Shown here: one piece after another, positions 28,608-45,870 of the stretch
Layout of the letters: each line of letters starts with the position of its first letter
Numbering within the stretch: position 1 is the first letter of the stretch
Assembly (NCBI RefSeq): GCF_004138485.1
Contig: NZ_RYEV01000004.1
Span: 804,803 to 868,802, forward strand
DNA: 64,000 bases
Source of the DNA: Peristeroidobacter soli
Lineage (GTDB): Bacteria; Pseudomonadota; Gammaproteobacteria; Steroidobacterales; Steroidobacteraceae
Reading direction: 5' to 3'
Position numbers and translations under genes: made by a program
The notes under the pieces: model-generated
Told to the model about the DNA's origin: nothing
Databases searched by the model: none
Seen by the model: only the letters and a program-made list of their open reading frames with translations

Positions 28608-28641
28608 GAGTTCTCCGAAGCCGCAGTTGCATCCCGATTCA

Positions 28642-28677
28642 TTATGCCTATACATTAACGTTTATGGCTATACATTA
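28642..28677. promoter_or_regulatory. Tandem candidate HutC operators between hutF and hutI
   Basis: Two 16-base direct repeats, TTATGCCTATACATTA (28642-28657) and TTATGGCTATACATTA (28662-28677), differ at one position and are 20 bases apart, about two helical turns. They contain a CTATACAT core similar to TATA-centred sites known for HutC-type regulators. They lie in the 95-base gap that carries both divergent hut promoters. Confidence 0.75.
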
Positions 28678-28702
28678 GCCGCCCGCCCGAGCCGAGCCGA
28701 CC

Positions 28703-29929: not shown

Positions 29930-31464
29930 CCGCCCTTGTTTTGAACCCCGGCTCGGTGACCTTGGCTGACTGGCGCGCCATCTATCGCGGCGCCAGCCTG
30001 AAGCTGGACGATGCCTGTCGACCGGCCGTGGCACGCAGCGCTCAGGTGATCGCAAAGATCGTCGCCGACGGTCATCCCGTCTACGGCATCAATACCGGCT
30101 TCGGCAAGCTCGCCAGCGTTCGCATCGAAGCCGCCGATCTGGTTCAGCTGCAAAAGAACATCGTGCTGTCACACTCGGCCGGCGTCGGTGAGCCGCTGCC
30201 AGCAAACATCACGCGCTTGATGATGGCGTTGAAGCTGGTCAGTCTCGGCCAGGGCGCCTCGGGCGTCCGCAATGAAACAGTCGACTTTCTCGAAGCCATG
30301 CTCGCGCACGACATCATTCCGGTGGTGCCGTCACAAGGTTCGGTCGGTGCCTCTGGAGATCTCGCGCCGCTCGCGCACATGACCGCGGCGATGCTCGGCG
30401 TCGGCGACGTATTCACGAAGAAAGGCCGGCTCCCCGCCGTTGAAGGCCTGGCGCTGGCGGGACTCAAACCGTTCACCCTCGGTCCGAAGGAAGGACTCGC
30501 ACTGCTGAACGGCACGCAGTTCTCGACGGCTGTGACACTCGCCGCGCTGTTCGAAGCGGACGTCATATTCCAGACCGCCTTGGTCGTCGGCGCACTGACC
30601 ACCGATGCCGCGCTGGGCTCCGACACGCCGTTCGACCATCGCATCCATCTGCTTCGCAAGCATCGCGGCCAGATCGAAGCCGCCGATGCATTACGCGACC
30701 TGATGGCAGGAAGCGCATTGCGGGCCTCGCATCTGGTCAATGACGAACGAGTGCAGGACCCCTACTGCCTGCGCTGCCAGCCACAAGTGATGGGCGCTTG
30801 TTTGGATCTACTGAGACAGGCCGCCACATTTCTGGACACGGAAGCCAACGGCGTTTCCGATAATCCGCTGGTGTTCGCTGACACGGGCGAAGCGCTGTCG
30901 GGCGGCAATTTCCACGCGGAGCCGGTGGCCTTCGCTGCCGACATGATCGCGATCGCACTGTGCGAGATCGGTTCGATTGCCGAGCGGCGCATCGCCATGC
31001 TGATCGATCCCGCGCTGTCGGGGCTGCCGGCGTTCCTCACCCCCAAGCCGGGGCTGAACTCCGGGTTCATGATTCCGCAGGTGACGGCCGCGGCCCTCGT
31101 GTCGGAGAACAAACAAAAAGCGTTCCCGGCAAGTGTCGATTCGATTCCGACGTCGGCCAATCAAGAGGATCACGTCTCGATGGCGGCGCACGGCGCCCGT
31201 CGCCTGTTGCCCATGATCGACAACGTCGCGGCAGTGATCGCCATCGAGCTGCTCGCGGCCGGACAAGCTTGCGACTTTCATGCGCCGCTGGCATCGAGCC
31301 CGGCGCTCGAAGCCGTGCGCGCCACCCTGCGCAATCGCGTACCGAAGCTCGAGGACGATCGCTACATGCAGCCTGATATGGAGACCGCCATCGCGCTGGT
31401 GCGCAGCTCCTCCATCGCGACTGCCGCCGGCCTGCAACTTCCCAGCCTCTGCGAATACAACTAA
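29926..31464 (+). CDS. hutH: Histidine ammonia-lyase
   Basis: 512 residues from ATG 29926, with GGAGAGG just upstream and an ATGA overlap with hutI. The self-formed MIO cofactor triad Ala142-Ser143-Gly144 is in [22 protein letters not shown] near 56 and the late [15 protein letters not shown] segment (residues 406-420) are also conserved. It deaminates L-histidine to urocanate, step one. Length is the usual 510 residues. Confidence 0.96.
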
Positions 31465-31478
31465 TCCAGGAATCCGCC

Positions 31479-33143
31479 ATGTCACGAGTCGACACATCGC
31501 GCGTGATACGCGCTCCCCGCGGCAACACCCTCTCCGCCCGCAGCTGGCTGACCGAAGCGCCGCTGCGGATGCTGATGAACAATCTCGATCCCGACGTCGC
31601 CGAACGCCCCAGCGAACTGGTGGTGTACGGCGGCATCGGTCGCGCGGCCCGCGATTGGGAAAGCTTCGATCGCATCGTCGCGACGCTGCAGCGGCTCGGA
31701 GCGGATGAAACCTTGCTGATTCAGTCGGGCAAGCCGGTCGGTGTGTTTCGTACCCACCCGGACGCGCCGCGCGTGCTGCTGGCCAACTCGAACCTGGTGC
31801 CGCACTGGGCCACCTGGGAGCATTTCAACGAGCTGGACCGTCGCGGCCTGATGATGTTCGGTCAGATGACCGCCGGCTCCTGGATCTACATCGGCTCGCA
31901 AGGCATCGTGCAGGGAACGTATGAAACGTTCGTCGAGATGGGCCGTCGTCATTACGGCGGCAGCCTGAGCGGCAAATGGATTCTCACCGCCGGTCTCGGT
32001 GGCATGGGCGGCGCGCAGCCGCTCGCCGCGACCATGGCCGGCGCCAGCTGTCTCGCCATCGAGTGTCGTCAGTCCAGCATCGATTTCCGATTGCGTACCG
32101 GCTATGTCGATGTCTGCGCGAAGGACCTGGATGAAGCGCTGCTGCTGATCGACGAGGCGACGCGTTCGGGCAAAGCTCGATCCGTGGCCCTGCGCGGCAA
32201 TGCTTGTGAGATTCTGCCGGAGCTGGTGCGTCGAGGCGTGCGGCCGCATGCCGTCACCGATCAAACATCGGCGCACGATCCGATCAACGGTTACCTGCCG
32301 GGCGGCTGGACCGTCGAGCGTTGGGAGGCCGAACGCGCCTCCAATCCAAACGGCGTGGCCGACGCCGCGAAGCGATCGATGGCGGTCCATGTGAAGGCCA
32401 TGCTCGAATTCCATCGGCTCGGCATTCCAACCTTCGACTACGGCAACAACATCCGTCAGGTCGCGCTCGATCAGGGCGTGACGGACGCCTTCGCTTTCCC
32501 CGGCTTCGTGCCTGCTTACATCCGGCCGCTGTTCTGCCGCGGTGTCGGCCCGTTCCGCTGGGCCGCGCTCTCTGGCGATCCGGACGATATTTATAAGACG
32601 GACGCCAAGGTCAAAGAGCTGCTGCCGAACGACAAACATCTGCACAACTGGCTCGACATGGCGCGGGCCCGCATCAAATTCCAGGGTCTGCCGGCCCGCA
32701 TCTGCTGGGTCGGTCTCGGCGAGCGGCATCGTCTCGGCCTCGCCTTCAACGAGATGGTGGCGTCCGGCGAACTGAGCGCTCCGGTCGTCATCGGTCGCGA
32801 CCATCTCGACTCCGGCTCGGTCGCCTCACCCAATCGCGAAACCGAATCGATGCGCGACGGTTCCGATGCGGTGTCGGATTGGCCGCTGCTGAACGCCCTG
32901 CTCAACACCGCTTCGGGCGCGACGTGGGTTTCACTCCATCACGGCGGCGGTGTCGGCATGGGCTTCTCACAGCACGCTGGTATGGTCATCGTCTGCGACG
33001 GAACGAAAGAAGCAGCCGCGCGCATCGGTCGAGTGTTGTGGAACGATCCTGCCAGCGGCGTCATGCGACATGCCGACGCGGGATACGAGTCCGCCGTCGA
33101 GCACGCTCGCAAGATGGGCCTGGATCTGCCGAGCCTCGGCTGA
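31479..33143 (+). CDS. hutU: Urocanate hydratase
   Basis: 554 residues, the usual length. NAD-binding and active-site boxes are present: [56 protein letters not shown], and the C-terminal [18 protein letters not shown] and [25 protein letters not shown]. It hydrates urocanate to imidazolone propionate, step two. It follows hutH by 14 bases. Confidence 0.96.
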
Positions 33144-33796: not shown

Positions 33797-34252
33797 TCAG
33801 ATGTTCCCTGACACCGGGTTCCAGTGAAACATGCCCTTCGCCAGCAGCACGATGGCGATCATGTGCCAGAACACACTCAGGTGGATGAATCGCGAGCGGC
33901 GCGCCGTCATCCGCCCTTGCAGGCTCCATGTGATCGCGCGAATGAAATGCCCGAGCACACTGAGCGCCAGCAGGATCTTCAGCGACAGCATCAATGCGAA
34001 GCTGCTCTCGAAAGGATGAGCCAGCGCGGTCCGATAGCTCCACGCCATCCCTGCTCCTGCGCCATACAGCACGAGCAAAACCCACGGCATCAGCCGGCGT
34101 GCCCGCTTCATGACGGCCACCTCGACCTCGCGCATCGCTGCTCGATCGACGTGTTTGCGCACGCCTTCGAGCATCAATATCTCGAAGAACACGGCACCGA
34201 CAAAAATCAGCGCGCCGAACAGATGCAACGTCAGCAGCACCGGATGACTCAT
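33797..34252 (-). CDS. CopD-like four-helix membrane protein
   Basis: 151 residues from ATG 34252. Four hydrophobic helices are visible (LTLHLFGALIFVGAVFFEILML; RLMPWVLLVLYGAGAGMAWSY; FALMLSLKILLALSVLGHFI; HLSVFWHMIAIVLLAKGMFHW), with histidines inside or beside them (LHLFG, GHFIR, FWHM) that could bind haem or copper as in CopD-type proteins. No Shine-Dalgarno sequence precedes the ATG. It is divergent from a P450 gene with an FNR-like box midway. A link to NO or denitrification metabolism is inferred from the neighbours. Confidence 0.75.
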   Translation of the reverse strand: MSHPVLLTLHLFGALIFVGAVFFEILMLEGVRKHVDRAAMREVEVAVMKRARRLMPWVLLVLYGAGAGMAWSYRTALAHPFESSFALMLSLKILLALSVLGHFIRAITWSLQGRMTARRSRFIHLSVFWHMIAIVLLAKGMFHWNPVSGNI

Positions 34253-34288
34253 GAACGCGATGATGCGGTCGGCGCTGCCAGTAGCGCA

Positions 34289-34302
34289 TTGATCTAAGTC
34301 AG
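34289..34302. promoter_or_regulatory. FNR-type box in the CopD/P450 divergent promoter
   Basis: TTGATCTAAGTCAG has two mismatches from TTGAT-N4-ATCAA. Its centre (34295.5) is 41.5 bases from the P450 ATG, with TGTACT at 34325-34330 as a -10 element. It is 43.5 bases from the copD ATG. Either promoter would yield a leaderless or nearly leaderless mRNA. Confidence 0.65.
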
Positions 34303-34336
34303 AACAGCACGCCGCCGGATGCGGTGTACTCGCAGC

Positions 34337-35500
34337 ATGAGCCGCATGCCCGACCATGTGTTTCTGGAAGATTGGGACCCCAAGGACCCGAGCGTCCTGC
34401 AGGATCAGATCAGCGCTTATGACAACATGAGGCGACGGTGTCCGGTCGCGCACAGCGAAGCCATGCACTGGTCGCTGTTCCGCCACGCCGACGTGGTACG
34501 CGCCCTGCGCGATCCTCGAACCTACAGCAACGAGGTCTCCACACACCTCTCGGTGCCGAACGGGATCGATCCACCGCTGCATTCGGATTACCGAGACATC
34601 GTCGATCCCTACTTCAGTCAGCAACGCATCGACACGTTCGAGCCGGCGTGTCGCGAGATCGCGGAAGGCCTGATCGGTAAACTGCCGATCGATCGAGCCG
34701 TGGAAGTCATGAGCGAGCTGGCGCAACCTTTCGCCCTGCAAGCTCAGTCGGCCTTTCTCGACTGGCCCGCGCATCTCCACGAGCCGCTGCGGCAATGGAC
34801 GATTAGAAATCGCGAGGCCACGCTGGCTCAGGATGCTGTCGCAACAGCGGCGGTGGCACAGGAATTCGACGGTTACATCCGCGACCTGCTCGAAACGCGC
34901 AGGCAAGCAACCGAGCCTGCGGACGATGTCACATCACGGCTGCTTCGCGAGCGAATTCGTGGACGCCTGCTCACGGATGAAGAGATCGTCAGCATCCTGC
35001 GCAACTGGACGGTCGGTGAACTGACCACCATCGCGGCCTGCGTGGGCATTCTGGTGCAGTACCTGGCGGAGCATCCCAATGTCCAACAGCAACTTCGCCA
35101 GATGCCGACGGCGCTGCCAACGGCCATCGACGAGATCTTGCGTATCCATCCACCGCTGCTCACCAGTCGCCGCAAGACCACGCGCTCCGTCACCATCGGT
35201 GGCAAATTCTTGGCGGCTGGGTCGCGTGTCACATTGATGTGGGCTTCCGCCAATCGCGACGAGCGAGCCTTCGACGCACCGGATGAGTTTCAACTGGATC
35301 GCAATCCCGACGAGAATCTTCTGTACGGTCTGGGCATCCACGTGTGCCCGGGCGCGCCGCTGGCGCGTCTCGAATTGCGCGTCATCATGGAAGAACTGCT
35401 GGCCTACACCGAATGGTTCAGCCCGCAGACCCACCAGCCGCCGGTCCGAGCCATGTATCCGGCGAGCGGGTATTTCGAAACCTGGGTGGCGTTGGGCTGA
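34337..35500 (+). CDS. Cytochrome P450
   Basis: 387 residues, a compact soluble bacterial P450. The haem cysteine is C337 in YGLGIHVCPGAPLAR (Tyr replaces the usual Phe of FxxGxxxC). The K-helix ExxR is E266-I-L-R269. The I-helix reads VGELTT (226-231): the acid-threonine pair is present with Glu in place of the more common Asp. No ferredoxin or reductase gene adjoins. It lies between a CopD-like gene and nnrS under an FNR-type promoter, unusual for an enzyme class that normally consumes oxygen. Substrate unknown; a NO-related role is possible. Confidence 0.92.
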   Translation: MSRMPDHVFLEDWDPKDPSVLQDQISAYDNMRRRCPVAHSEAMHWSLFRHADVVRALRDPRTYSNEVSTHLSVPNGIDPPLHSDYRDIVDPYFSQQRIDTFEPACREIAEGLIGKLPIDRAVEVMSELAQPFALQAQSAFLDWPAHLHEPLRQWTIRNREATLAQDAVATAAVAQEFDGYIRDLLETRRQATEPADDVTSRLLRERIRGRLLTDEEIVSILRNWTVGELTTIAACVGILVQYLAEHPNVQQQLRQMPTALPTAIDEILRIHPPLLTSRRKTTRSVTIGGKFLAAGSRVTLMWASANRDERAFDAPDEFQLDRNPDENLLYGLGIHVCPGAPLARLELRVIMEELLAYTEWFSPQTHQPPVRAMYPASGYFETWVALG

Positions 35501-35503
35501 ACC

Positions 35504-36715
35504 TCAGCCCGGTTTGCCGTCCACGCGCGGTCGAATCAGGATCGGCGCGTAGACGATCAAATACAAAGCAAAGGCCACGCACCACAACGCACCGGCCAAC
35601 GTCACCGCATATCGATAAGCATCGCCCGCAACCAGCGCGAACACTCGGACCAGCGCACCCGCCGTGAGCGCGAGGTATGCGATGGCAATCGCGCGACCGA
35701 CCACCAACGGTCGACCGGTGTGACCCAGCGATGCACGAGTCGTGACGGCAAGAATCATGGTGGCAAACGCGCCCATCGTGAAGGCATGCAGCCACAGAGC
35801 CGCCCACGACACGTCACCCAGCAGCCAGAGAGCTTTGAGTGCAAAGCCAATCGGCAACCATGCATAGCCGATGTGCAATGCCCAGACGATGGGCTCGCGT
35901 AGTGTCTTGTGCCCGTACCAGCCAGAGAGCCGCCACGCATGCGCGATGGCTGCAGCGGCCGCGAGCACCCCACTCGCCAACGAACCACGCGCGACAAGAT
36001 CGACGGCGGCGACGGCAATCGTCAATCCAATGACGGCTCGATCCAGCAGCGGCCGGGCCACGAGCTCGACGGTTTCACCTCGACGCCGCAAAGCATTGGC
36101 GGTGAACGACGGCACAATCCGTCCGCCAATGACCGTGACCAGTACCAGGATGATGTTGATCGCCAGGTGCAAAGCGTCCTGCGCGAGCACCTGATCGCCA
36201 AACCTCAGCGCACTGACGAAGGCAGCATCGAGCAGCCACAGCACGCCGAGCACGAACAGCATCGGAGTGTTTCGATTGCGCGCTCGAAGCAGCGGCGGCG
36301 CCAGCATCAGCATGACCGCCGGCAGAAAGCTCAGCTCCACGACGGCGATGAGCCAGACCGGCAATCGATCGCCTGCGAAGAACACCAGACGGCCCGCGAC
36401 CCAAAGCAGCGTGAGCAGGATCAGCGGTCTTCCGCCGAACCCACGCGCGCCCGTCCAGCTCGGCACGGCAGTGAGCAAGAAACCAGCAATCGCCGCGGCG
36501 GCGAATCCATAGATCATTTCGTGGCCGTGCCAGAACTGGGGCGCGACGCCCGACGGCATCGTCGCCCCATGCGTGTAGATCCACAGCCAGGCGGGCACGG
36601 AAATGAGCGCATACACGCCGGCGAGCAGGAAGAACGGCCTGAAGCCGTACTCGAACAGCGCGAAGCGACGGGATTGGCAGGCCGAGGGTCGGCCCGAAAG
36701 AGTGGCGGCGTCCAT
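35504..36715 (-). CDS. nnrS: NnrS-family haem/copper membrane protein
   Basis: 403 residues with about twelve hydrophobic helices. The N-terminal FEYGFRPFFLLAGVYALISVPAWLW and FWHGHEMIYGFAAAAIAGFLLTAVPSWTG (histidines for haem), GGRIVPSFTANALRR and the late HAFTMGAFATMILAVTTRASLGHTGRPL are NnrS signatures. NnrS proteins protect iron pools during nitrosative stress and are usually regulated by NO-sensing or FNR-family proteins. The ATG has no Shine-Dalgarno sequence, and a perfect FNR box lies 44.5 bases upstream. The gene is convergent with the P450 gene, three bases apart. Confidence 0.93.
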   Translation of the reverse strand: MDAATLSGRPSACQSRRFALFEYGFRPFFLLAGVYALISVPAWLWIYTHGATMPSGVAPQFWHGHEMIYGFAAAAIAGFLLTAVPSWTGARGFGGRPLILLTLLWVAGRLVFFAGDRLPVWLIAVVELSFLPAVMLMLAPPLLRARNRNTPMLFVLGVLWLLDAAFVSALRFGDQVLAQDALHLAINIILVLVTVIGGRIVPSFTANALRRRGETVELVARPLLDRAVIGLTIAVAAVDLVARGSLASGVLAAAAAIAHAWRLSGWYGHKTLREPIVWALHIGYAWLPIGFALKALWLLGDVSWAALWLHAFTMGAFATMILAVTTRASLGHTGRPLVVGRAIAIAYLALTAGALVRVFALVAGDAYRYAVTLAGALWCVAFALYLIVYAPILIRPRVDGKPG

Positions 36716-36752
36716 TGGTTGCCAGTATGAGCGTCAGCTGCGCTGGCGCTCC

Positions 36753-36766
36753 TTGATCTAGATCAA
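36753..36766 (-). promoter_or_regulatory. FNR box of nnrS
   Basis: TTGATCTAGATCAA, a perfect FNR/Dnr palindrome, overlaps the last bases of nadB. On the minus strand CATACT (36729-36724) is a suitable -10 element, and transcription would start about 36718-36715, at the nnrS ATG itself. Confidence 0.88.
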
Positions 36767-38248
36767 GTGAACCACTCGATGCACGGGCTCTTCTTCAGCA
36801 TCGCTTCTGTAGTGAGCCCCGCGATTGACACGTTGGCCGGCCGCCGCACGCATCATGTGTTCAGCGAGCCCCAGGCGCTGTCGTGTCAGCAAGGCGAGTG
36901 CCGACGTGCGCTCACGCAATCGAGCAATGCAGGTCAGCCCTTCCGACAGCCCCCGCGCATCACGCACGAGCCCCATCGATCGCCACATGCATTCGCGCAG
37001 CACCCGCTCGGTTTCCTCATCGACCCATTGATCGCTCACCACGGCGGACGCGATCAACTCGCTCGCAGGATGCCGATACTCACGATTCAATGCCTGACCG
37101 AGGCGGCGGCCGAGCACCACTGCTTCGAGCAATGAATTACTCGCGAGACGATTGGCGCCGTGAAAACCCGTGCAAGCCGCCTCACCCACGGCCCACAGGC
37201 CCGGCAGGCTCGATCGCCCATCGAGATCCACCGCGATGCCGCCCATGTGATAGTGCTCTGCCGGCGTAATAGGCACGGGCTCCTGCGCCAGCTCGAAGCC
37301 ATAGGACAGACACGCCTGATACGCGGCCGGGAATCGCGAGCAAACATCGCGCACGCCCGTCGCATCCAGCCACACATTTCTGCCGACGCATTCGAGGGTA
37401 TAGATCGTGCGGGCAACGATATCGCGCGGTGCGAGGTCGCCGAGTCGATGATATTCGCGCATGACGCTCACGCCGCGTTCATCCACGATCTTCGCCCCTG
37501 CTCCACGCAACGCCTCGGTCAACAGCGGCTGCGGCCGGGCATCGACCTTGAGTGCCGTTGGATGAAACTGCACGAACGGCAACGCCGTGGCTCGTGCGCC
37601 CGCGTCGATCGCCATTGCCAGCCCGTCACCGCACGCACCGATCGGATTCGTGCTTCGGCTATACAGTCCACCGATACCGCCAGTGGCGATCACGATAGCA
37701 TGTGCGCGAATGGCGAGCGGCTGGCCGCCCTCTGTTATCGCGAGCACGCCGTTGACCGCGCCGTTGATCAGAAGACGAACCGCCTGCGTGTTCGGCAACA
37801 TCTCGATATGAGAGGACTCCGCCACGTGCAGCCGCAGAGTCGCCATGATCGCGGCACCGGTTTGATCGCCGTTTGCATGCAGCACTCTCGCCCGACTATG
37901 CGCAGCTTCCCGATGTAACGACCAGGTACCGAGTTCCCGAGTAAACGGCACACCGAGCGCATGCAGAAAGGCGATCGTCCCCGGTCCCTCTTCGCAGACG
38001 AATCGCGTGACCCGGACCGCGTTCTCCTTGCAACCCGCGGCCATCGTGTCTTTCACATGCAGCGCCGGCGAATCATCCAAGCCCACGGCCGCGGCGATTC
38101 CACCCCGGGCGAGATCGCTTGCCGCGCCAGACTTGAGGGGATCGTCAGCGGTGAGAATGCACACTCGCCGGCCACGCGCGCTCAAAGCGGTCACGAGGCC
38201 GGCGGCGCCCGCGCCAATGACGACTACATCGGTATCGATCGTATTCAT
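36758..38248 (-). CDS. nadB: L-aspartate oxidase
   Basis: 496 residues from ATG 38248, which overlaps the nadA stop by four bases (ATGA). The FAD Rossmann motif VVIGAGAAGLVTALSA is followed by SGAASDLARGGIAAAVG, REAAHSRARVLHANGDQTG, and the late HYHMGGIAVDLDGRSSLPGLWAVGEAACTGFHGANRLASNSLLEA, typical of NadB. It oxidises L-aspartate to iminoaspartate and can use fumarate instead of oxygen. It works with NadA in quinolinate synthesis. The pair is read as nadA-nadB. Confidence 0.95.
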   Translation of the reverse strand: MNTIDTDVVVIGAGAAGLVTALSARGRRVCILTADDPLKSGAASDLARGGIAAAVGLDDSPALHVKDTMAAGCKENAVRVTRFVCEEGPGTIAFLHALGVPFTRELGTWSLHREAAHSRARVLHANGDQTGAAIMATLRLHVAESSHIEMLPNTQAVRLLINGAVNGVLAITEGGQPLAIRAHAIVIATGGIGGLYSRSTNPIGACGDGLAMAIDAGARATALPFVQFHPTALKVDARPQPLLTEALRGAGAKIVDERGVSVMREYHRLGDLAPRDIVARTIYTLECVGRNVWLDATGVRDVCSRFPAAYQACLSYGFELAQEPVPITPAEHYHMGGIAVDLDGRSSLPGLWAVGEAACTGFHGANRLASNSLLEAVVLGRRLGQALNREYRHPASELIASAVVSDQWVDEETERVLRECMWRSMGLVRDARGLSEGLTCIARLRERTSALALLTRQRLGLAEHMMRAAAGQRVNRGAHYRSDAEEEPVHRVVHLI

Positions 38249-39252
38249 GAGGGCCGTCCACTCAGGCTCAGCATTCGTTGAACGGCTCGACGCGCGCCAT
38301 CGGCAACATCGGCGGGCACCTCGACCGCGGGCGACAACGACTCCAGACACGCACGAATGTTCGCGAGATTGACTCGCTGCATGTGGGGACAGAGATTGCA
38401 CGGGCGCAGGAACTGGGTGCCCGGGAACTCGCTCGATATGTTGTCGCTCATCGAGCACTCCGTGATCAGGACAGCGCGCTCCGGCCGTCGCCGGTCGAGC
38501 GCGGCGATCATTCCCGCGGTCGAGCCGACGAAATCCGCCGCCTCCTGGACGTCGACCGGACACTCAGGATGCGCCAGCACGAAGGCATCCGTGGTCTGCC
38601 GGTACTCACGAATCTGCTCGCCCGTAAAGCGTTCGTGCACTTCGCAGCGCCCGAGCCAGGGAATGATTCGAACGGACGTGTTGGCCGCCACGTAGGCAGC
38701 TAGGTACTCATCCGGAACGAAGATGACTTCCGGCGAGCCCAAACTCTGCACCACTTGAATGGCATTCGCCGAAGTACAGCAGGCATCGCATTCGGCTTTG
38801 ACGGCCGCGCTGGTGTTCACGTAACAGACGGCCGGCACGCCTGGATAACGGGCGCGCAACGCACGCACGTCGGCGGCCTGAATCGATTCGGCGAGCGAAC
38901 AGCCCGCATTCGGGTCCGGCAACAGCACCAGGCGGTCGGGCGCGAGCAGCTTGACGGTCTCCGCCATGAAATGGACGCCGCACATGACGAAGACTTCCGC
39001 ATCGGACTCGGCGGCAATGCGCGCGAGCGCGAGCGAATCGCCTTGAACGTCGGCTACGCCATGAAAAATCTCGGGGCGCTGGTAGTTATGGGCCAGCACC
39101 ATTGCACCATGCTGGCGCTTCAGCGCCTGAATCGCCGCGACCTGGTCGTAAACCGCATCCCACTCTTCTCTAGGCATCGCTCGCCGGACCCGCGGATAGC
39201 GACGCGTGTGTTCGGCGGAATCGTAGTGGACATGAGAAAAGTCGACGGCCAT
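38245..39252 (-). CDS. nadA: Quinolinate synthase
   Basis: 335 residues. NadA motifs: VLAHNYQRPEI, GDSLALAR, MCGVHFMAETVKLL, LPDPNAGCSLA (C118), CYVNTSA, WLGRCEVHERF (C203) and RPCNLCPHM (C285/C288), the set that holds the [4Fe-4S] cluster. It condenses iminoaspartate with dihydroxyacetone phosphate to quinolinate; the cluster is oxygen-sensitive. AGGA lies just upstream of ATG 39252, and an FNR box 62 bases upstream predicts a leader of about 21 bases. Confidence 0.95.
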   Translation of the reverse strand: MAVDFSHVHYDSAEHTRRYPRVRRAMPREEWDAVYDQVAAIQALKRQHGAMVLAHNYQRPEIFHGVADVQGDSLALARIAAESDAEVFVMCGVHFMAETVKLLAPDRLVLLPDPNAGCSLAESIQAADVRALRARYPGVPAVCYVNTSAAVKAECDACCTSANAIQVVQSLGSPEVIFVPDEYLAAYVAANTSVRIIPWLGRCEVHERFTGEQIREYRQTTDAFVLAHPECPVDVQEAADFVGSTAGMIAALDRRRPERAVLITECSMSDNISSEFPGTQFLRPCNLCPHMQRVNLANIRACLESLSPAVEVPADVADGARRAVQRMLSLSGRPS

Positions 39253-39307
39253 CGCGCAATCCTGAACCGGGAGGCACGCAGCCTAGCGATGACGGAACGA
39301 GCGCCAC

Positions 39308-39321
39308 TTGATCCAGATCAA
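39308..39321. promoter_or_regulatory. FNR box between nadA and fnr
   Basis: TTGATCCAGATCAA is a perfect site and extends to a 20-base palindrome (CACTTGAT...ATCAAGTG, 39305-39324). Rightward, TATAAC at 39344-39349 is placed exactly for a class II (-41.5) promoter giving an fnr transcript from about 39356. Leftward, TAGGCT (39285-39280) could serve nadA with a start near 39273. Confidence 0.9.
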
Positions 39322-39360
39322 GTGGCACCGCAGTTGGCCCGGGTATAACGGCAACGACGT

Positions 39361-39374
39361 TTGATCCATGTCAA
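39361..39374 (+). promoter_or_regulatory. Second FNR-type box overlapping the fnr start codon
   Basis: TTGATCCATGTCAA differs at one base from the consensus and contains the ATG at 39368. Lying just downstream of the predicted fnr transcription start, it is positioned to repress rather than activate, suggesting negative autoregulation. Confidence 0.65.
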
Positions 39375-40090
39375 TAGACCGCGAGAACGGCATGCGCGAC
39401 GACGATACCTGCGACGGCTCCACCGCCGGCCCGATCCGATGCAGCAGCTGCGACCTGAACGAGGTCTGCCGCCTGTACGGCCTCATCGCCCTCGAGGGGC
39501 GCAACCGCAAACCGATGGGCACGCTGCGAACCATCCGCCCCGGTGCTCATTTATATAGAGCCGGCGCACCGGCAGGCCACCTCTACGCGGTCCGTCAGGG
39601 ATTGCTGAAAGTGGTGAATGTCACCGCCGAGGGTGACGAGCAGCTCCGCTCGGTGGCCGTCCCCGGCGAAGTGCTCGGGCTCGAAGCTTTCTCCTCCGGC
39701 ACATATGCCACCGACGCGGTCGCGCTCCAGCCGGTGGTCTGTTGCGAGCTTCCTCTGCCACTGCTGGAAGAACAAGGCATGCGAGTTCGCGAGCTCGCGG
39801 CGGCACTGATCCGATTGCTGAGCCGGGCAACCGCGCCCACCCTGAATCATGCCCGCGGCAGCATCCGAACGCGCATCATCGACTTCCTGCTCGATCTGTC
39901 GGCTCGCCTGAAACAGCGGGGCTACGACGGACGCGAGTTCACGCTCGGCTTGAGTCGCCAGGAAATCGCCAATCTGCTCGATGCCAGAATCGAGACCGTC
40001 AGTCGCATGATGCAGCGGTTGCATCGCGAGCGTGCCATTCAAATCAAAGGCAACAGCGTCACGATACTGCAGCTCAGTCACGCCGATTGA
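39368..40090 (+). CDS. fnr: FNR-type oxygen-sensing Crp-family regulator
   Basis: 240 residues from ATG 39368 (ATG 39392 is an alternative). The N-terminal cysteines C25-x2-C28-x5-C34 and a fourth at C125/C126 match the ligands of the FNR [4Fe-4S] oxygen-sensing cluster. A cyclic-nucleotide-like domain (about 55-150) leads into a helix-turn-helix with LSRQEIANLLDARIETVSRMMQRL, where E-x3-R contacts TTGAT half-sites. It sits within the genes whose promoters carry FNR boxes, so it is their likely controller. A DNR/ANR-like name would serve equally well. Confidence 0.93.
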   Translation: MSIDRENGMRDDDTCDGSTAGPIRCSSCDLNEVCRLYGLIALEGRNRKPMGTLRTIRPGAHLYRAGAPAGHLYAVRQGLLKVVNVTAEGDEQLRSVAVPGEVLGLEAFSSGTYATDAVALQPVVCCELPLPLLEEQGMRVRELAAALIRLLSRATAPTLNHARGSIRTRIIDFLLDLSARLKQRGYDGREFTLGLSRQEIANLLDARIETVSRMMQRLHRERAIQIKGNSVTILQLSHAD

Positions 40091-40100
40091 CGCATATCAA
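40087..40100 (+). promoter_or_regulatory. FNR box of ubiU
   Basis: TTGACGCATATCAA (one mismatch) overlaps the fnr stop. Its centre is 41.5 bases upstream of the A of the ubiU ATG, with TACCGT at 40123-40128 as the -10 element. The predicted transcript begins at the ATG, and no Shine-Dalgarno sequence is present. Confidence 0.8.
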
Positions 40101-40134
40101 GTCGTGACAGGGCGCGGACGCGTACCGTTCCGCC

Positions 40135-41136
40135 ATGACTCTCGAATTGGTGTGCCCGGCGGGGACCTTGCCTGCATTACGCGCCGCTGTCGATCATGGC
40201 GCCGACGCTGTCTACATCGGCTTTCGCGGTGAGACCAACGCCCGGAATTTTCCCGGCCTCAACTTCGCTTACGACGACGCGCGCTCCGGTCTCAACTACG
40301 CGCACGCCCGGGGCGCCCGCGTATTCGTGGCGATCAACGTCTATCCGGGCCCGGGCAACTGGCAGGCCGGCGTCGATGCAATCAAACAAGCGGCCGATAT
40401 CGGCGTCGATGCACTGATCCTCGCCGATCCCGGGCTCATGTCCTACGCAGCTGAACACCATCCCGAGCTGCGTCTGCATCTGAGCGTCCAGGGATCGGCG
40501 ACCAATTGGCGGGCCATCGAGTTCTACCGGCGTGAGTTCGGCATTCAACGCGCCGTCCTGCCACGCGTGCTCTCCTGCACTCAGGTGCAGCGGCTGATCG
40601 CTCGCACCTCGGTCGAGATCGAAGTGTTCGGGTTCGGCAGCCTGTGCGTCATGGTCGAGGGCCGCTGTGCCCTCTCCTCCTATGTGACGGGACACTCGCC
40701 CAACATGCAGGGCGTTTGCTCGCCGGCGCATGCGGTGCGCTGGGAAGAAACGCCCGATGGCCGTCAATCGCGCTTGAACGGTGTGTTGATCGATCGCTAC
40801 GCGCCGGGTGAAGCCGCCGGCTATCCGACCCTCTGCAAAGGACGCTTCCACGTCAACGACTCGGTCTTTCATGCGCTGGAGGAACCGACCAGCCTGAATG
40901 CCCTCGACGTGCTGCCGCGACTGGTCGCGAGCGGCGTACGCGCGATCAAAGTGGAAGGACGCCAGCGCTCCCCTGCATACGTCGCGCATGTGACGGGCCT
41001 GCTTCGTCGCGCACTGGATAGTTGTCTGTCCACCGGCGAGGACTGGACAGCTCCTCGCAATATCACCGCGGCACTCGATCATCTCGCCGAGGGACGCACC
41101 CATACGCTGGGTGCGTATCACCGACCATGGCAATGA
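40135..41136 (+). CDS. ubiU: Ubiquinone biosynthesis protein UbiU (U32 family)
   Basis: 333 residues. The U32 peptidase-like barrel begins MTLELVCPAGTLPALRAAVDHGADAVYIG. Cysteines C171, C178, C195 and C234 match, with a two-residue offset, the [4Fe-4S] ligands of E. coli UbiU (YhbU). With UbiV and UbiT it performs oxygen-independent hydroxylation in ubiquinone synthesis. Its stop overlaps the ubiV start (ATGATGA). The predicted mRNA is leaderless under an FNR box. Confidence 0.94.
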   Translation: MTLELVCPAGTLPALRAAVDHGADAVYIGFRGETNARNFPGLNFAYDDARSGLNYAHARGARVFVAINVYPGPGNWQAGVDAIKQAADIGVDALILADPGLMSYAAEHHPELRLHLSVQGSATNWRAIEFYRREFGIQRAVLPRVLSCTQVQRLIARTSVEIEVFGFGSLCVMVEGRCALSSYVTGHSPNMQGVCSPAHAVRWEETPDGRQSRLNGVLIDRYAPGEAAGYPTLCKGRFHVNDSVFHALEEPTSLNALDVLPRLVASGVRAIKVEGRQRSPAYVAHVTGLLRRALDSCLSTGEDWTAPRNITAALDHLAEGRTHTLGAYHRPWQ

Positions 41137-42035
41137 TGAAACTCGCCGTCGGTCCGGTTCTTTACCTGTGGGAGCGCACGGACGCGCTCTCGTTCTACGA
41201 GTCGCTGTGCGAGGCGCCGGTCGACATCGTCTATCTCGGCGAAGTCGTGTGCAGCAAGCGTCGAGTGCTCGAACGTGACGATTGGCCCGACGTGGCACGC
41301 ATGCTCACGCAGGCCGGCAAGGAAGTCGTGATCTCCACGCTGGCGCTCCTCGAAGCCGAATCCGAGCTGGCCACGCTCGCCCGTCAGATCGACGGCGCGC
41401 CCCGGCTGTTCGAAGCAAACGACTACGCCGCCGTCGAATACGGCGCCGGTCGGCCCTTCGTCGCCGGCCCGCATCTCAACGTCTACAACACCTCGACACT
41501 CAACCTGCTCGCTCGACAAGGTGCACGACGCTGGGTTGCTCCGGTCGAGTTGCCGCTCGATACCGTTGCGAAGCTGGCCGCCACGCGCCCGCCCGGACTG
41601 GAAATCGAGATGTTCGCGTACGGCCGTCTGCCGCTGGCATTCTCGGCGCGGTGCTTCACGGCGCGCTCTCACAATCTCGCCAAGGACGACTGCGGCTTCA
41701 TCTGCGGTTCGTATCCTGACGGGCTCACGCTCTACTCGCGCGAGGAACAGCCGTTCCTGACGTTGAACGGCATCCAGACGCAATCGGCTTCGGTGCAGAA
41801 CCTGCACCCTCATGTCTCGTCATTGCGCGCCGCCGGCGTCGATGTGCTCAGGCTGTCCCCTCACTCTCTGGGCTTCATCGACGTGGTGCGCGCATTCGAC
41901 GAGGCGGTCAACACTATGGGCGCGACCGAGTTTCCCGAGCCCTATCTTCCCGGTGGTTATTGCGATGGCTACCTGGGCGGCGCAGCTGGCATAGCCCGGG
42001 CAGCACACGAGCGCGGTTCGCGAGCGCCTCCGTGA
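41133..42035 (+). CDS. ubiV: Ubiquinone biosynthesis protein UbiV (U32 family)
   Basis: 300 residues from ATG 41133; ATGs at 41127 and 41136 are alternatives. The protein opens MMKLAVGPVLYLWER, and four cysteines (C40, C174, C187, C191: C-x12-C-x3-C) match the iron-sulphur ligands of UbiV (YhbV). It forms a complex with UbiU for anaerobic ring hydroxylation. The 3' end overlaps the convergent ubiT gene by 122 bases, which is unusual. Confidence 0.93.
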   Translation: MMKLAVGPVLYLWERTDALSFYESLCEAPVDIVYLGEVVCSKRRVLERDDWPDVARMLTQAGKEVVISTLALLEAESELATLARQIDGAPRLFEANDYAAVEYGAGRPFVAGPHLNVYNTSTLNLLARQGARRWVAPVELPLDTVAKLAATRPPGLEIEMFAYGRLPLAFSARCFTARSHNLAKDDCGFICGSYPDGLTLYSREEQPFLTLNGIQTQSASVQNLHPHVSSLRAAGVDVLRLSPHSLGFIDVVRAFDEAVNTMGATEFPEPYLPGGYCDGYLGGAAGIARAAHERGSRAPP

Positions 42036-42471
42036 ACCTGGCGACCGGCGCCGGCAGCACGGCGCGCAAGTGTCCCGGCACATCGTATTCCCAACCATCC
42101 AGCAGATTCTTCAGATGCAGCCCCGTTTCCGTTTCGCCCTCCACCGCCAGGCGGCGCTGAAAGAAAAGTGCATCGGGATCTTCTCGGCGCGCAGCCAGCG
42201 ACGCGAAGTCCCGCAATGCGCCTCGAAAAGTCACATCGGCGTCGAGATCCGAGCGGCGCAGTCCAGCGGCTGTGATTTCGAACGTGAGCGCGAGCGGCAC
42301 GTCCTGAACGTGCAGACAGAACCGCTTTCCCGCCAGCTCCGTCAGGCGCGGCTCAATGGACTGCCCCCGCATCAACCGGTTCACGAAGAACGCAATGGCT
42401 CGAGAATGAACCGGTGCAGGCGCGAGCCGGAGCAGAGGACGGAGCACGGTGGTGGGATCGAGCACGGACAT
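41914..42471 (-). CDS. ubiT: Ubiquinone biosynthesis accessory factor UbiT (SCP2 domain)
   Basis: 185 residues from ATG 42471 (an ATG at 42495 is upstream of the FNR-predicted transcript start). The SCP2-like lipid-binding fold runs from about 35 to 130 ([21 protein letters not shown] ... [51 protein letters not shown]), as in YhbT/UbiT, which carries hydrophobic intermediates in the oxygen-independent pathway. The last 25 residues are arginine-rich and encoded opposite ubiV; they may be a read-on tail of little function. Confidence 0.88.
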
Positions 42472-42522
42472 CTCCAGCAAATGGAATCCGCGCATTCATG
42501 CCACGGCCACGGCTGCATCAGT

Positions 42523-42536
42523 TTGATCATAGTCAA
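42523..42536. promoter_or_regulatory. FNR-type box between ubiT and the UbiD-family gene
   Basis: TTGATCATAGTCAA (one mismatch) lies in the ubiT/ubiD-like divergent gap. Its distance suits ubiT: a start near 42488, 17 bases before ATG 42471. For the UbiD-like gene it is too close (about 20 bases from the ATG), so that gene may have another promoter or be repressed from here. Confidence 0.72.
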
Positions 42537-42548
42537 ATCGAGACAAGG

Positions 42549-44066
42549 ATGAGTTACGCGAGCCTGCGCGACTTTGTGCGCGCATTGGAGCGCAAGGGCG
42601 AACTGAAGCGCGTCCCTTTCGCAGTGGATCCGAATCTCGAGATGACCGCGCTCTGCCAGCGCAGCCTGCAGTCTGGCGGCCCGGCACTGTGGTTCGAGCG
42701 CCCCCGCGGATCGAGCATGCCTGTGCTCGGTAATTTGTTTGGTACACAGGCGCGAGTCGCCGCCGCGCTTGACTATTCCGACGTCAAGGAATTAAGAGAC
42801 CTGGGCACATTGCTGAGCGCGCTCAAGGATCCGCAGTGGCCCGATCGTCCGAGTGCGCTGCTCGAACGACTGCCGAGCTTTCTACCCTTGCTCAAGGCGA
42901 CACCGCGCGTCATCTGGAACCCGCCGTGTCATCAGCACGTGTTGAGCGGCGATGAAATCGATCTCTCCCGCTTGCCCATCTGGACCTGTTGGCCCGAGGA
43001 CGCCGGCCGGCTCATCACCTGGGGGCTCGTGGTTACGCGCGGCACTCGCAAGCCGCGTCAGAACGTTGCCATCTATCGTCAGCAAGTGATCGGGCGCAAT
43101 CGGGTCATCATGCGCTGGCTCCCCCACCGGGGCGGCGCGCTCGACTTTCAGGATTGGCAGAAAGCTCATCCGGGCAAGCCTTTTCCCGTGGTCGTCGCCA
43201 TCGGCGCCGATCCGGCACTGCTCATCGCCGCCACGGCCCCCATCCCCGACAGCGTTTCCGAGTTTCAGTTCGCCGGGCTGCTGCGCCGTCAGCGCAGCGA
43301 GATCTATCGGACCCGCGTCGGTCTCGACGCGCCCGCCACCGCCGAAATCGTTTTTGAGGGTCACATCCTGTCGGGCGACGAAGCGCTCGAAGGACCGTTT
43401 GGCGATCACACCGGCTATTACAACTCGCAGGCGAAGTTTCCCGTGTTCACGATCGAACGCGTCTGCATGCGAGAGCAGGCGTTCTATCACGGCGGCTACA
43501 TGGGCCGCTCACCTTGGGACGAGCCGTCAGTGCTGGCGATGGCTCTGAATGAAATGTTCGTTCCCATGCTGCAGCGAAGCCATCCGGAGATCGCCGATTT
43601 CTATTTTCCGCCGGAGGCCTGTTCGTACCGGGTCGCGGTGGTCAGCATTCGCAAGGCCTATCCGGGGCATGCGCGCCAGGTGATGCAGGCCGTGTGGTCC
43701 TACCTGCGACAGTTCCTGTATATCAAATTCATCATCGTCACCGACGACGACGTGAACATCCGCGACTGGCAGGAGGTGATCTGGGCCATCGCCACGCGCG
43801 TCGATCCGGCGCGCGACACGCATCTGGTGCGACGGACGCCCATCGATTACCTGGATTTCGCCAGCCCGGTCGCGGGACTCGGGTCCAAGCTCGGCATCGA
43901 CGCCACCCATAAATGGCCGGCCGAAACCAAACGCCGCTGGGGAAGGCCGATCGAAATGAGTCGCGACGTGCTGGAGCGCACCGATGCGATGTGGACCCTG
44001 CTGCATGCAAATTCAGCGACTTCAATTGACTCACATCAAGGTGACCTCACGCATCGTGCGCTCTAA
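42549..44066 (+). CDS. ubiD: UbiD-family prenylated-FMN decarboxylase
   Basis: 505 residues from ATG 42549 (AAGG upstream). UbiD features: [21 protein letters not shown] at the start, [26 protein letters not shown] (prenyl-FMN and cation site), EIVFEGHI and [11 protein letters not shown] (catalytic Glu region), and the C-terminal [25 protein letters not shown]. It would decarboxylate 4-hydroxy-3-polyprenylbenzoate or a related aromatic acid, non-oxidatively. Its position among ubiUVT favours ubiquinone synthesis. UbiX, which makes the cofactor, is not in the window. Confidence 0.87.
44026..44039 (+). promoter_or_regulatory. FNR box of fabA
   Basis: TTGACTCACATCAA (one mismatch) is inside the 3' end of the UbiD-like gene. 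TCTAAT at 44062-44067 (five of six -10 bases) follows, and a start at 44074-44075 coincides with the fabA ATG. No Shine-Dalgarno sequence is present. Confidence 0.82.
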
Positions 44067-44074
44067 TCGGGCCC

Positions 44075-44659
44075 ATGCACACCACGATCGCCGCCGTCGC
44101 CAGCACGGCACCGCCCCTTCGTCAATCGTCGTTCTCGAAACAGGAACTGATCGCCTGCGGTGAAGGCGAACTGTTCGGGCCGAATACGCCGCGCCTGCCG
44201 GTCGGCCCGATGCGCATGGTCGATCGCATCACCTGGATTGCCTCGCACGGCGGCGCTTACGACCGCGGCGAAGTGCGCGCCGAGCTGGATATCGATCCCG
44301 GCCTCTGGTTCTTCGACTGTCACTTTCGCGGCGATCCCGTCATGCCGGGTTGTCTCGGGCTCGATGCGATGTGGCAATTGATCGGCTTCTATCTCGCATG
44401 GAGTCAGCACAAAGGCCTCGGGCGCGCGCTGGGCGTCGACGAGGTTCGTTTCTTCGGCCAGGTATTACCGAGCGTCAAGCGAGTCACGTATCAAATAGAC
44501 ATCCGGCGCGTCATCGTTCGCAAGCTCATCATGATCACCGGTGACGGTACCTTGTTTGCGGACGGCGAGCGGATCTACGCCGCACGCGGACTGCGCGTCG
44601 GCCTGTTCGACGGCCCCGCCCGCATGGGCGGCATGACTCTCACGTCCGGAATCGAATGA
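44075..44659 (+). CDS. fabA: 3-hydroxydecanoyl-ACP dehydratase/isomerase
   Basis: 194 residues. The hot-dog-fold active site is [23 protein letters not shown], with catalytic H83 and D97. [13 protein letters not shown] precedes it, and [23 protein letters not shown] follows. FabA introduces the cis double bond during fatty acid synthesis without oxygen. Its stop overlaps the fabB ATG by four bases. It has its own FNR-type promoter, implying induction when oxygen is scarce. Confidence 0.95.
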
Positions 44660-45870
44660 TGCGGCGGGTCGTGGTGACAGGCATGGGCATCGTCTCGTGC
44701 CTCGGGAATGATCTGCAGACCGTCAGCGAATCGTTGCGCATCGGCCGGTCCGGCATCCGCGCGATGCCTCAGTACGCCGAGTTCGGCTTGCGCAGCCAGA
44801 TCGCCGGCGTGCCCCAGATCAACACTCAGGATCATGTCGATCGGCGGGATTTGCGTTTCATGGGCGACGCGGCGGCATTCGCCGCGATTTCCTTATCGCA
44901 CGCCATCCGCGACAGCGGCCTGACTGAAACTCAAGTGAGCCATCCCCGCACCGGCTTGATCGCCGGCAGCGGCGGCGGCTCACCTGCCAACGTCGTCGAG
45001 TCGGCGGATACGTTGCGATCTCGCGGCGTACGCAAGGTCGGCGCAACGCGAGTGCCCCGAACGATGTGCAGCACCGTTGCCGCCTGTCTCGCCACGACGT
45101 TTCATATCAAAGGCGTGAGTTACTCCGTGACTTCCGCTTGCGCGACCAGCGCGCATTGCATAGGCGCCGCCGCAGAACAGATTCGATGGGGCCACCAGGA
45201 TGTGATGTTCTGCGGCGGCGGGGAGGAAGAGCACTGGTCGTTGACCGCGCTCTTCGACGCCATGGGTGCGCTCTCCGCCGGACGAAACGATCGGCCGGAG
45301 ACCGCCTCACGTGCCTACGACGCACAACGCGATGGTTTCGTCATCGCAAGCGGCGGCGGCATGATCGTGCTCGAATCGCTCGAGCATGCGAGTGCCCGAG
45401 GCGCGCCCATCATTGCCGAGCTCGTCGGTTTCGGCGTGACCGCCGACGGCGCCGACATGGTGCAACCCTCCGGTGAAGGCGCAGTCCGTTGTATGCACCA
45501 GGCGCTCGCGACCGTGAATGGTCCGATCGACTATCTCAACGCGCACGGCACCTCGACACCGCTCGGCGATGCGATCGAGCTCAGAGCGATCAGCGAAGTG
45601 TTCGGCGCGCAGATACCGCCGATCTCTTCGACCAAATCGCTCTCCGGTCATTCGCTCGGCGCCGCCGGCGTGCACGAAGCGATCTACAGTCTCCTCATGC
45701 TCCGCGACGGCTTCATGGCCGGCTCGGTAAACATCGAAGACATCGATCCGGCGTGCGCGCCCTATCCGATCCTGCGCGCCACTCGCGAGCAGCGCATCGA
45801 GACGGTCATGTCCAACAGCTTCGGCTTCGGCGGCACCAACGGAACCCTGGTGTTTCAGCGCTTCTCCTGA
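44656..45870 (+). CDS. fabB: 3-oxoacyl-ACP synthase I
   Basis: 404 residues. The KAS triad is visible: C162 in [12 protein letters not shown], a histidine in [12 protein letters not shown] (near 296) and a histidine in [14 protein letters not shown] (near 333). FabB elongates the cis-unsaturated acyl chain made by FabA, completing anaerobic unsaturated fatty acid synthesis. The fabA-fabB order and ATGA overlap indicate one operon. The 3' end overlaps the convergent terC-like gene by 16 bases. Confidence 0.95.

Follow-up and report, generated by a model that had tools for sequence, protein, structure and literature searches.

A gene cluster with a probable role in oxygen-independent biosynthesis and its own FNR-type regulator in Peristeroidobacter soli

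In Escherichia coli and other Pseudomonadota, the passages of two reports that describe ubiTUV place ubiV after ubiU with ubiT beside them, give FNR sites upstream of both ubiU and ubiT, and assign the genes a role in oxygen-independent ubiquinone synthesis (PMC10470549, PMC11707229). In anaerobic fungi, according to the sections of another report on NadA and NadB, a horizontally acquired, oxygen-independent aspartate route to nicotinamide adenine dinucleotide (NAD) has replaced the oxygen-requiring kynurenine route (PMC8262920). Sphingopyxis granuli TFA encodes two FNR-type regulators in one genome, and the portions of the corresponding paper dealing with Fnr give sites near -41.5 (from -40.5 to -42.5) and ubiT as a target (PMC7713065). 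Features of each of these systems recur in a cluster of twelve adjacent genes in Peristeroidobacter soli, at positions 33797 to 45870 of a 64,000-nucleotide stretch of DNA, referred to here as the window (RefSeq assembly GCF_004138485.1, contig NZ_RYEV01000004.1, positions 804,803 to 868,802; G000:C3:804803-868802 in our numbering). The genome is 9.37 Mb and the G+C content of the window is 62.9%. Below, G000 is the genome of the window, other G numbers denote comparison genomes, and L numbers denote individual loci.

We consider it very probable that the cluster is a horizontally acquired island for the oxygen-free synthesis of essential molecules, switched on by its own FNR. This reading draws on gene identities, enrichment of FNR-type boxes, promoter geometry, co-occurrence of the genes across genomes, the two NAD routes of G000, and incongruent divergence between island and core proteins. 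An earlier note, made from the sequence alone, had proposed such an anaerobic-biosynthesis island; its oxygen-independent genes, dense FNR boxes, and clustering in relatives are borne out here, but its mobility is not, and gene order varies among the relatives.

Gene content and density of FNR-type boxes

All twelve open reading frames (ORFs) are present and adjacent, and 11 of them have family support from Pfam, NCBIfam, or curated models (Table 1). The exception is the ORF at 33797 to 34252 labeled CopD-like, for which there were zero matches in Pfam or NCBIfam, leaving that label unsupported; a homologue with 72% identity adjoins nadB in G011. UbiU, UbiV, and UbiT all score above their curated cut-offs and are encoded side by side, with FNR sites upstream of ubiU (40087) and ubiT (42523), as in a ubiTUV locus. 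Curated models also separate FabA from FabZ and FabB (KAS I) from FabF. For the aspartate route to NAD, NadA exceeds its cut-off, and the best match of NadB is L-aspartate oxidase, although its score of 503 bits does not reach the curated cut-off of 528. The UbiD-family protein lies below a more specific model, PRK10922 (709 versus 788).

Seven FNR-type boxes are located in the cluster at the positions previously reported, and the mismatch tally against TTGAT-N4-ATCAA (two perfect, four with one mismatch, and one with two) was reproduced. Against the broader TTGAY-N4-RTCAA, six of the seven are exact, and the box at 34289 has one mismatch. The window contains 14 sites with no more than one mismatch to this pattern, compared with 3.6 expected, a number reached in 0 of 100 shuffles. 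Genome-wide, 42 exact sites were identified, six of them in the island, and a reversed-pattern control gave 12. The earlier note had staked its reading on an unequal density of such boxes across the genome, and unequal it proved: the density in the rest of the genome (36 in 9.36 Mb) predicts 0.046 exact boxes per 12,074 bases, against the six present (Poisson P of approximately 1e-11), making exact boxes approximately 130 times denser in the island. Of the 36 exact boxes outside the island, 29 lie inside ORFs of at least 200 amino acids, and three have a -10-like hexamer (4/6 matches) at 21 to 23 nucleotides on either strand. The best-looking of them by eye, G000:C7:101181, was rejected as a candidate, the ORF behind it having no Pfam match.

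Promoter geometry and the two FNR-like proteins

At many promoters, activation by FNR proceeds from a site centred near -41.5, so that the -10 hexamer follows the 14-base site after a gap of 22 nucleotides (class II). This spacing was examined in 38 box-gene pairs for nadA, fnr, fabA, ubiU, and nnrS from the window and its relatives. For each gene the box with the fewest mismatches was chosen, with ties resolved in favor of the box nearest the start. Three genes without a box within 160 nucleotides (nadA in G045 and ubiU in G006 and G030) were dropped from this set, and genes without a box were likewise left out of the means for ubiT (three), ubiD (three), and p450 (one). The fnr rows of the window and G011 were kept but score low, because the downstream box was chosen there.

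Over the 38 pairs, the match to TATAAT peaks at a spacing of 22 nucleotides, with 3.34 of 6 positions, compared with a mean of 1.15 over spacings of 5 to 40 and 1.74 at the next best spacing. At 22 nucleotides the match is 4.73 for fabA (n = 11), 2.94 for nadA together with fnr (n = 16), and 2.89 for ubiU (n = 9). Class II spacing is thus strong at fabA, is accompanied by poorer hexamers at nadA, fnr, and ubiU, and is shifted to 23 nucleotides at nnrS. The box at 39308 fits in both directions, having a hexamer 22 nucleotides away on the nadA side and on the fnr side. When the box shared by ubiT and ubiD is read towards ubiD there is no signal (0.38 at 22 nucleotides, n = 8); read towards ubiT, the value is 2.62 (n = 8), tied with a spacing of 19. 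The boxes between p450 and copD (three sequences) are unconvincing as class II sites. Not all seven boxes are placed for activation: the one at 39361 lies across the start of fnr, and 42523 (towards ubiD) and 34289 (towards p450) are off the class II distance.

A search of the 14 genomes of the genus for box-N22-TANNNT with zero mismatches gave 10 matches. G000 and G011 have two each, all four inside the islands, and the islands of G009 and G002 have one each. A further match lies at fnr in G006, and three are found elsewhere (in G002, G005, and G013). The distance from box to -10 hexamer, being that of class II FNR promoters, supports activation, most strongly at fabA. Seven bases separate the end of the fabA hexamer from the ATG in the window. 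Counted from the start of the box, ubiU begins 48 nucleotides on in six of the nine sequences with a ubiU box, and the position aligned with the fabA start of the window comes after 48 to 51 nucleotides in nine of 11. If these promoters are class II, the fabA and ubiU transcripts (44026-44075 and 40087-40135) are predicted to begin at or beside the start codon and so to be leaderless.

Three N-terminal cysteines, a central cysteine, and a recognition helix of the form ExxSR characterize FNR proteins. In the island Fnr these are C25, C28, and C34 (C-X2-C-X5-C), a central CC, and a helix containing ETVSR, and orthologues of this protein (48 to 64% identity) were found solely with the island in a survey that included 48 genomes. 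A second FNR-like protein, encoded at G000:C7:367139, has approximately 33% identity to it, the same C-X2-C-X5-C spacing, and an ETxSR helix. Given the shared cysteine motif, either regulator could act on the boxes. The boxes might even serve mainly the second protein, the island fnr being a minor or differently tuned paralogue. In keeping with this, the second protein occurs in genus members with the island (G000, G011, and G002) and without it (G001). However, the exact boxes are concentrated in the island, those elsewhere are mostly intragenic and seldom accompanied by a -10-like hexamer, and orthologues of the island Fnr accompany the island alone, so that we regard this alternative as rather unlikely and continue to favor control by the island's own FNR.

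Table 1. Genes and FNR-type boxes of the cluster (positions in the window)
Feature	Position	Strand	Remarks
Small ORF ("CopD-like"), ~151 amino acids	33797..34252	-	No Pfam/NCBIfam match
FNR-type box between copD-like and p450	34289..34302		1 mismatch to TTGAY-N4-RTCAA; class II spacing absent for p450, weak on the copD-like side
Cytochrome P450, 393 amino acids	34319..35500	+	PF00067; I-helix VGELTT; orthologue alignments
nnrS	35504..36715	-	PF05940, E 1.3e-111
FNR box upstream of nnrS, overlapping nadB stop	36753..36766		-10-like CATACT 23 nucleotides downstream, nnrS side
nadB, L-aspartate oxidase	36758..38248	-	Start overlaps nadA end by 4 nucleotides
nadA, quinolinate synthase	38245..39252	-	339 bits versus cut-off 294
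FNR box common to divergent nadA/fnr promoters	39308..39321		Full match TTGAT-N4-ATCAA; 22 nucleotides to TAGGCT (nadA) and TATAAC (fnr)
Second FNR box, overlapping fnr start	39361..39374		Candidate autorepression site; lies after putative TATAAC -10
fnr, island-specific CRP/FNR regulator	39368..40090	+	C-X2-C-X5-C, ETVSR; Pfam domains over cut-off
FNR box 48 nucleotides before ubiU start codon	40087..40100		Same 48 nucleotides in L001, L002, L003, L099, L101
ubiU	40135..41136	+	530 bits versus cut-off 440
ubiV	41133..42035	+	367 bits versus cut-off 275
ubiT (SCP2 domain)	41914..42495	-	116 bits versus cut-off 47; start may be ATG at 42471
FNR box between ubiT and ubiD	42523..42536		Spacing a weak fit for ubiT and no fit for ubiD
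ubiD-family decarboxylase	42549..44066	+	TIGR00148 475 versus cut-off 245
FNR box 49 nucleotides before fabA, inside ubiD end	44026..44039		-10 TCTAAT 22 nucleotides downstream
fabA	44075..44659	+	TIGR01749 259 versus cut-off 238
fabB (KAS I)	44656..45870	+	PRK07967 643 versus cut-off 630

Distribution in related genomes and probable horizontal acquisition

To the left of the cluster, 26524 to 33143 is occupied by genes of the histidine-degradation type, encoding a GntR-type regulator, a HutF-like and another amidohydrolase, an aromatic amino acid lyase, and urocanase. The neighborhoods of UbiU were surveyed for the best 80 loci in named genomes, of 587 confirmed, with flanks of up to 10 kb, some loci ending at contig ends. 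Among these 80, ubiV was found in 79, ubiT in 76, and ubiD in 43, while fabA and fabB were found in three each and nadA or nadB in none. Thus, ubiUVT commonly form a block, with or without ubiD, and fab and nad genes were seen joined to it solely among the kin of G000. The statement in the earlier note that genes of this kind are usually scattered was too broad: ubiU, ubiV, and ubiT are described as clustered with FNR sites across Pseudomonadota in the parts of PMC11707229 that treat them, and ubiD joins them in 43 of the 80 loci above. The unusual part is that ubiTUV is joined by fabAB, nadAB, and a private fnr.

The fab genes are added in L001 to L003, and fnr, ubiUVT, ubiD, fabAB, and nadAB share one stretch in G009, G011, G002, and G045, in differing orders. 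G009 has fabA between fnr and ubiU; in G002, fabAB follow nadB on the opposite strand; and in G045, nadA comes directly after fabB. The nadAB genes of G026 are on another contig with a box of their own. In G006, nnrS, P450, and fabAB occur together, and in G011 the P450 and nnrS genes are approximately 8 and 11 kb, respectively, from fabB. The same genes therefore cluster in relatives, but the conserved gene order looked for there gave way to reshuffling. A gene divergent from fnr in G006, considered as nadA, was rejected as it encodes a TonB-dependent receptor.

UbiU was identified in five of the 14 genomes of the genus. NadA is present in four of these five (not in G006) and in none of the nine without UbiU; FabA is present in all five and in one of the nine, G012, where the gene is a fragment cut off by the end of a contig. 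Across 48 genomes of the family, FabA occurs in nine of the 12 with UbiU and one of the 36 without (P = 1.2e-6, a statistic that ignores kinship); a weak FabA match in G047 (E 8.7e-6) was left out of the counts. The contig-end fabA of G012 (L112, G012:C287) lies behind an exact FNR box and adjoins genes for a COX1-family (NorB-like) protein, a cytochrome c, a cytochrome b561, and a DUF6522 protein, and it possibly belongs to a broken-off island. Of the NorB-like proteins at G011:C10:1417466, G003:C204:9301, and G012:C287:774, that of G012 is 91% identical to those of G011 and G003. As G012 is far from both in the core tree, the NorB-like gene is another candidate for horizontal transfer.

The nadAB genes are informative because the genome also holds an oxygen-requiring NAD route, a point absent from the earlier note. 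3-HAO is an oxygen-using enzyme of the kynurenine route. It was found in 13 of the 14 genus genomes, including G000, and is absent solely from G009, which has narG and, of the two routes, only that from aspartate. In G000 it belongs to a kynurenine-type operon with a cyclase-family protein, kynureninase, and an FAD monooxygenase, the set expected for conversion of kynurenine to quinolinate. Among 38 family genomes with 3-HAO, NadA is present in seven of the eight with UbiU and one of the 30 without (P = 4.9e-6, kinship again ignored), so that it is mostly in UbiU-bearing genomes that the aspartate and kynurenine routes occur together.

Divergence of the island was compared with that of core proteins, represented by SurA (in part), PdxA, and KsgA. 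By KsgA, the genomes nearest to G000 are G001, G011, G008, and G010. Core proteins of G000 are 92 to 97% identical to those of G001 and of G011, and the second Fnr of G000 and G011 is 93% identical. The island proteins of G000 and G011 are only 59 to 82% identical. G026, from another genus, shares 55 to 81% identity with the G000 island, about as much as G011 does, with 58 to 66% in the core. The tree path from G000 to G011 is 0.077 for the core and 0.40 for UbiU, UbiV, and UbiD together. The ratio of island to core path is approximately 5 for this pair, compared with approximately 0.35 for G000 and G026, 0.5 for G009 and G002, and 0.7 for G000 and G009. For none of UbiU, NadA, and FabA was there a match in G001, which the core tree places as sister to G011. 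Labeling island presence on the core tree requires five changes, of which starred branches force at least three (12 labeled rows of 21). The simplest reading of these sequence comparisons is separate horizontal acquisition by at least one of G000 and G011.

An ancestral cluster, inherited vertically and lost by most relatives, would need no horizontal transfer. The oxygen-independent ubiquinone pathway is reported as mainly vertical in Pseudomonadota in the relevant part of PMC11707229, and G000 and G011 are neighbors in the UbiU, UbiV, and UbiD tree (support 80/77). Vertical descent, however, sits badly with islands so divergent between genomes whose core proteins and second Fnr are nearly identical, with a path ratio so much higher for this pair than for the three others, and with a G026 island that matches that of G000 about as well as G011 does despite its distant core; we consider it quite improbable, and horizontal acquisition is preferred.

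Signs of mobility itself were not detected in the composition of the island, the flanks scanned, or the near relatives compared. The G+C content of the island (63.3%, compared with 62.8% for the rest of the window) gives no compositional signal, and among the ORFs scanned on either side (26.5 to 33.8 and 45.9 to 62.7 kb) none belonged to an integrase or transposase family. In G010, 148 kb separate the flanking hut and terC genes, and in G001 the two are on different contigs, so that no clean empty site could be demonstrated, and none was seen in the four near relatives examined. Of the earlier phrase "mobile-ready kit," the evidence thus upholds acquisition by horizontal transfer, but in the absence of a mobility family in those flanks, an empty site, or a constant gene order, not readiness to move.

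Two stretches were examined among 150 plasmid records with a match. An Ideonella plasmid carries UbiUV near nnrS and nitrate reductase, and in the Pseudomonas aeruginosa plasmid CP109682.1 (195687-215267, L160), two U32-peptidase genes (UbiU/UbiV-like) and a third gene lie beside molybdenum-cofactor genes. No fabAB or nadAB genes are annotated in either stretch.

Proposed function and comparison with known systems

In P450 enzymes, an acid-threonine pair in the I-helix serves oxygen activation and is altered in P450nor. The I-helix reads RNWTVGELTT in the window, RNWTVGELAT in G011 and G006, WTVGEVGT or WTMGEVGT in four relatives (49 to 55% identity), and AGHGT in two others (43 to 44%). The usual acid before the threonine is absent from the window P450 and all of these relatives. 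At E 1e-40, matches to this P450 were found in eight of 369 class genomes, including G000. Of six P450 genomes with at least 43% identity, four have nnrS on the same stretch (L200, L201, L202, and L205, two of them from one genus) and two do not. Exact FNR boxes occur both in the stretch of G363, which carries nnrS, fabA, a second nnrS, ubiUV, P450, part of ubiT, and genes for a hemerythrin, a CRP/FNR protein, and two NarK-like transporters (the latter scoring below curated cut-offs), and in that of G232, which has nnrS, moeA, hemN, and P450. The acid-less clade (window 34319-35500, L201, L202, L151, and L103) lies near nnrS in several genomes and, in isolated instances, close to ubiUVT, hemN, or fabA accompanied by FNR boxes. 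In L202 (G363:C1:1228000-1242000), from another family of the same class, a similar cluster is separately arranged. Assignment to CYP55 (P450nor) was unsupported, as no chain so named occurs in the 60 best of 396 PDB matches. An oxygen-free function tied to anaerobic life is plausible for this P450; nitric oxide (NO) reduction is a guess. The clade is a good candidate for an unusual P450 reaction.

These neighborhoods suggest another reading, in which the main task of the island is the response to NO or nitrogen oxides and the biosynthetic genes are carried along as passengers. It would account for nnrS lying beside or near P450 in several genomes, for narG at approximately 6 kb from the island in G026 and 14 kb in G009, and for the hemerythrin, NarK-like transporters, and two nnrS genes of the G363 cluster. 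Nevertheless, the best conserved activating promoters belong to fabA and nadA, and seven of nine other bearers have no nnrS or P450 homologue in the stretches compared; we find this reading distinctly improbable.

Several observations weigh against an acquired, FNR-controlled biosynthetic island. The association tests ignore the relatedness of genomes, and the core tree is built from three neighboring genes, SurA being partial. FabA is missing from UbiU-bearing G020, G030, and G037, NadA is missing from G006 (75% complete), the genes of G018 are spread over separate contigs, and those of G026 are divided by the separate placement of nadAB already mentioned. NadA occurs without UbiU or 3-HAO in G024, G027, G035, G036, and G043 and is therefore by itself no anaerobic marker. 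The island Fnr scores 120 against a cut-off of 228 on the curated Fnr model NF008365, and it is therefore named FNR-type rather than an equivalog of E. coli Fnr. With one mismatch allowed, the class II pattern occurs 18 times in G000 compared with 11 in the reversed control; the pattern is thus only modestly enriched genome-wide, and for this reason zero-mismatch matches alone were used as evidence. With regard to an electron acceptor, no narG was found in G000, and no NorB at E 1e-20.

On the favored reading of an oxygen-free biosynthetic island, the island FNR (or the second FNR) would bind the boxes when oxygen is absent and activate nadAB, fnr, ubiUV, ubiT, fabAB, and nnrS through class II promoters, in which 22 to 23 nucleotides lie between the end of the box and the -10. 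The second box, over the fnr start, would probably limit fnr expression. UbiUVT would then carry out the ubiquinone hydroxylations without oxygen and UbiD the decarboxylation, FabA and FabB would supply unsaturated fatty acids without a desaturase, and NadB, using an acceptor other than oxygen, followed by NadA, would provide quinolinate for NAD without the kynurenine oxygenases. Bacterial aspartate oxidases can take fumarate in place of oxygen, as stated in a passage of PMC8262920. DNA binding, oxygen-dependent expression, and actual growth without oxygen are what we infer from sequence. As the genus has close pairs with and without the island, the idea is directly testable.

A bolder version is possible, though we tend to doubt it. 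In it, a self-regulated kit moves among bacteria whose other routes to NAD, ubiquinone, and unsaturated fats use oxygen. One transfer would bring an FNR sensor, oxygen-free replacements for all three routes, and an oxygen-free P450 (perhaps an NO reductase); this P450 would recur in FNR-marked neighborhoods of distant genomes of the same class, and the fabA and ubiU messages would be leaderless.

FNR control and clustering of ubiTUV are already published; their union with fabAB, nadAB, and a private FNR is new. A literature search covering open-licence papers found no description of the joint cluster. Unlike the known ubiTUV loci, the island joins fabAB, nadAB, nnrS, P450, and a dedicated fnr to these genes, and in the available main text of PMC11707229 fabA and nadA each appear 0 times. 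The Fnr targets named in excerpts of the Sphingopyxis granuli TFA paper include nitrate transport and nrdZ, unlike the island, with no fabAB or nadAB seen there (PMC7713065). The anaerobic fungi, in turn, are eukaryotes whose kynurenine genes are missing, whereas these are kept here, and the passages on their NadA and NadB contain no FNR control, ubiquinone genes, or fatty-acid genes (PMC8262920). P. soli offers a clear bacterial case of an aspartate NAD route beside a kynurenine-type route. The barrier to oxygen-free growth of aerobes is usually discussed in terms of respiration; this island points to biosynthesis, with oxygen-independent routes to three essential molecules in one regulated cluster, seemingly acquired more than once.

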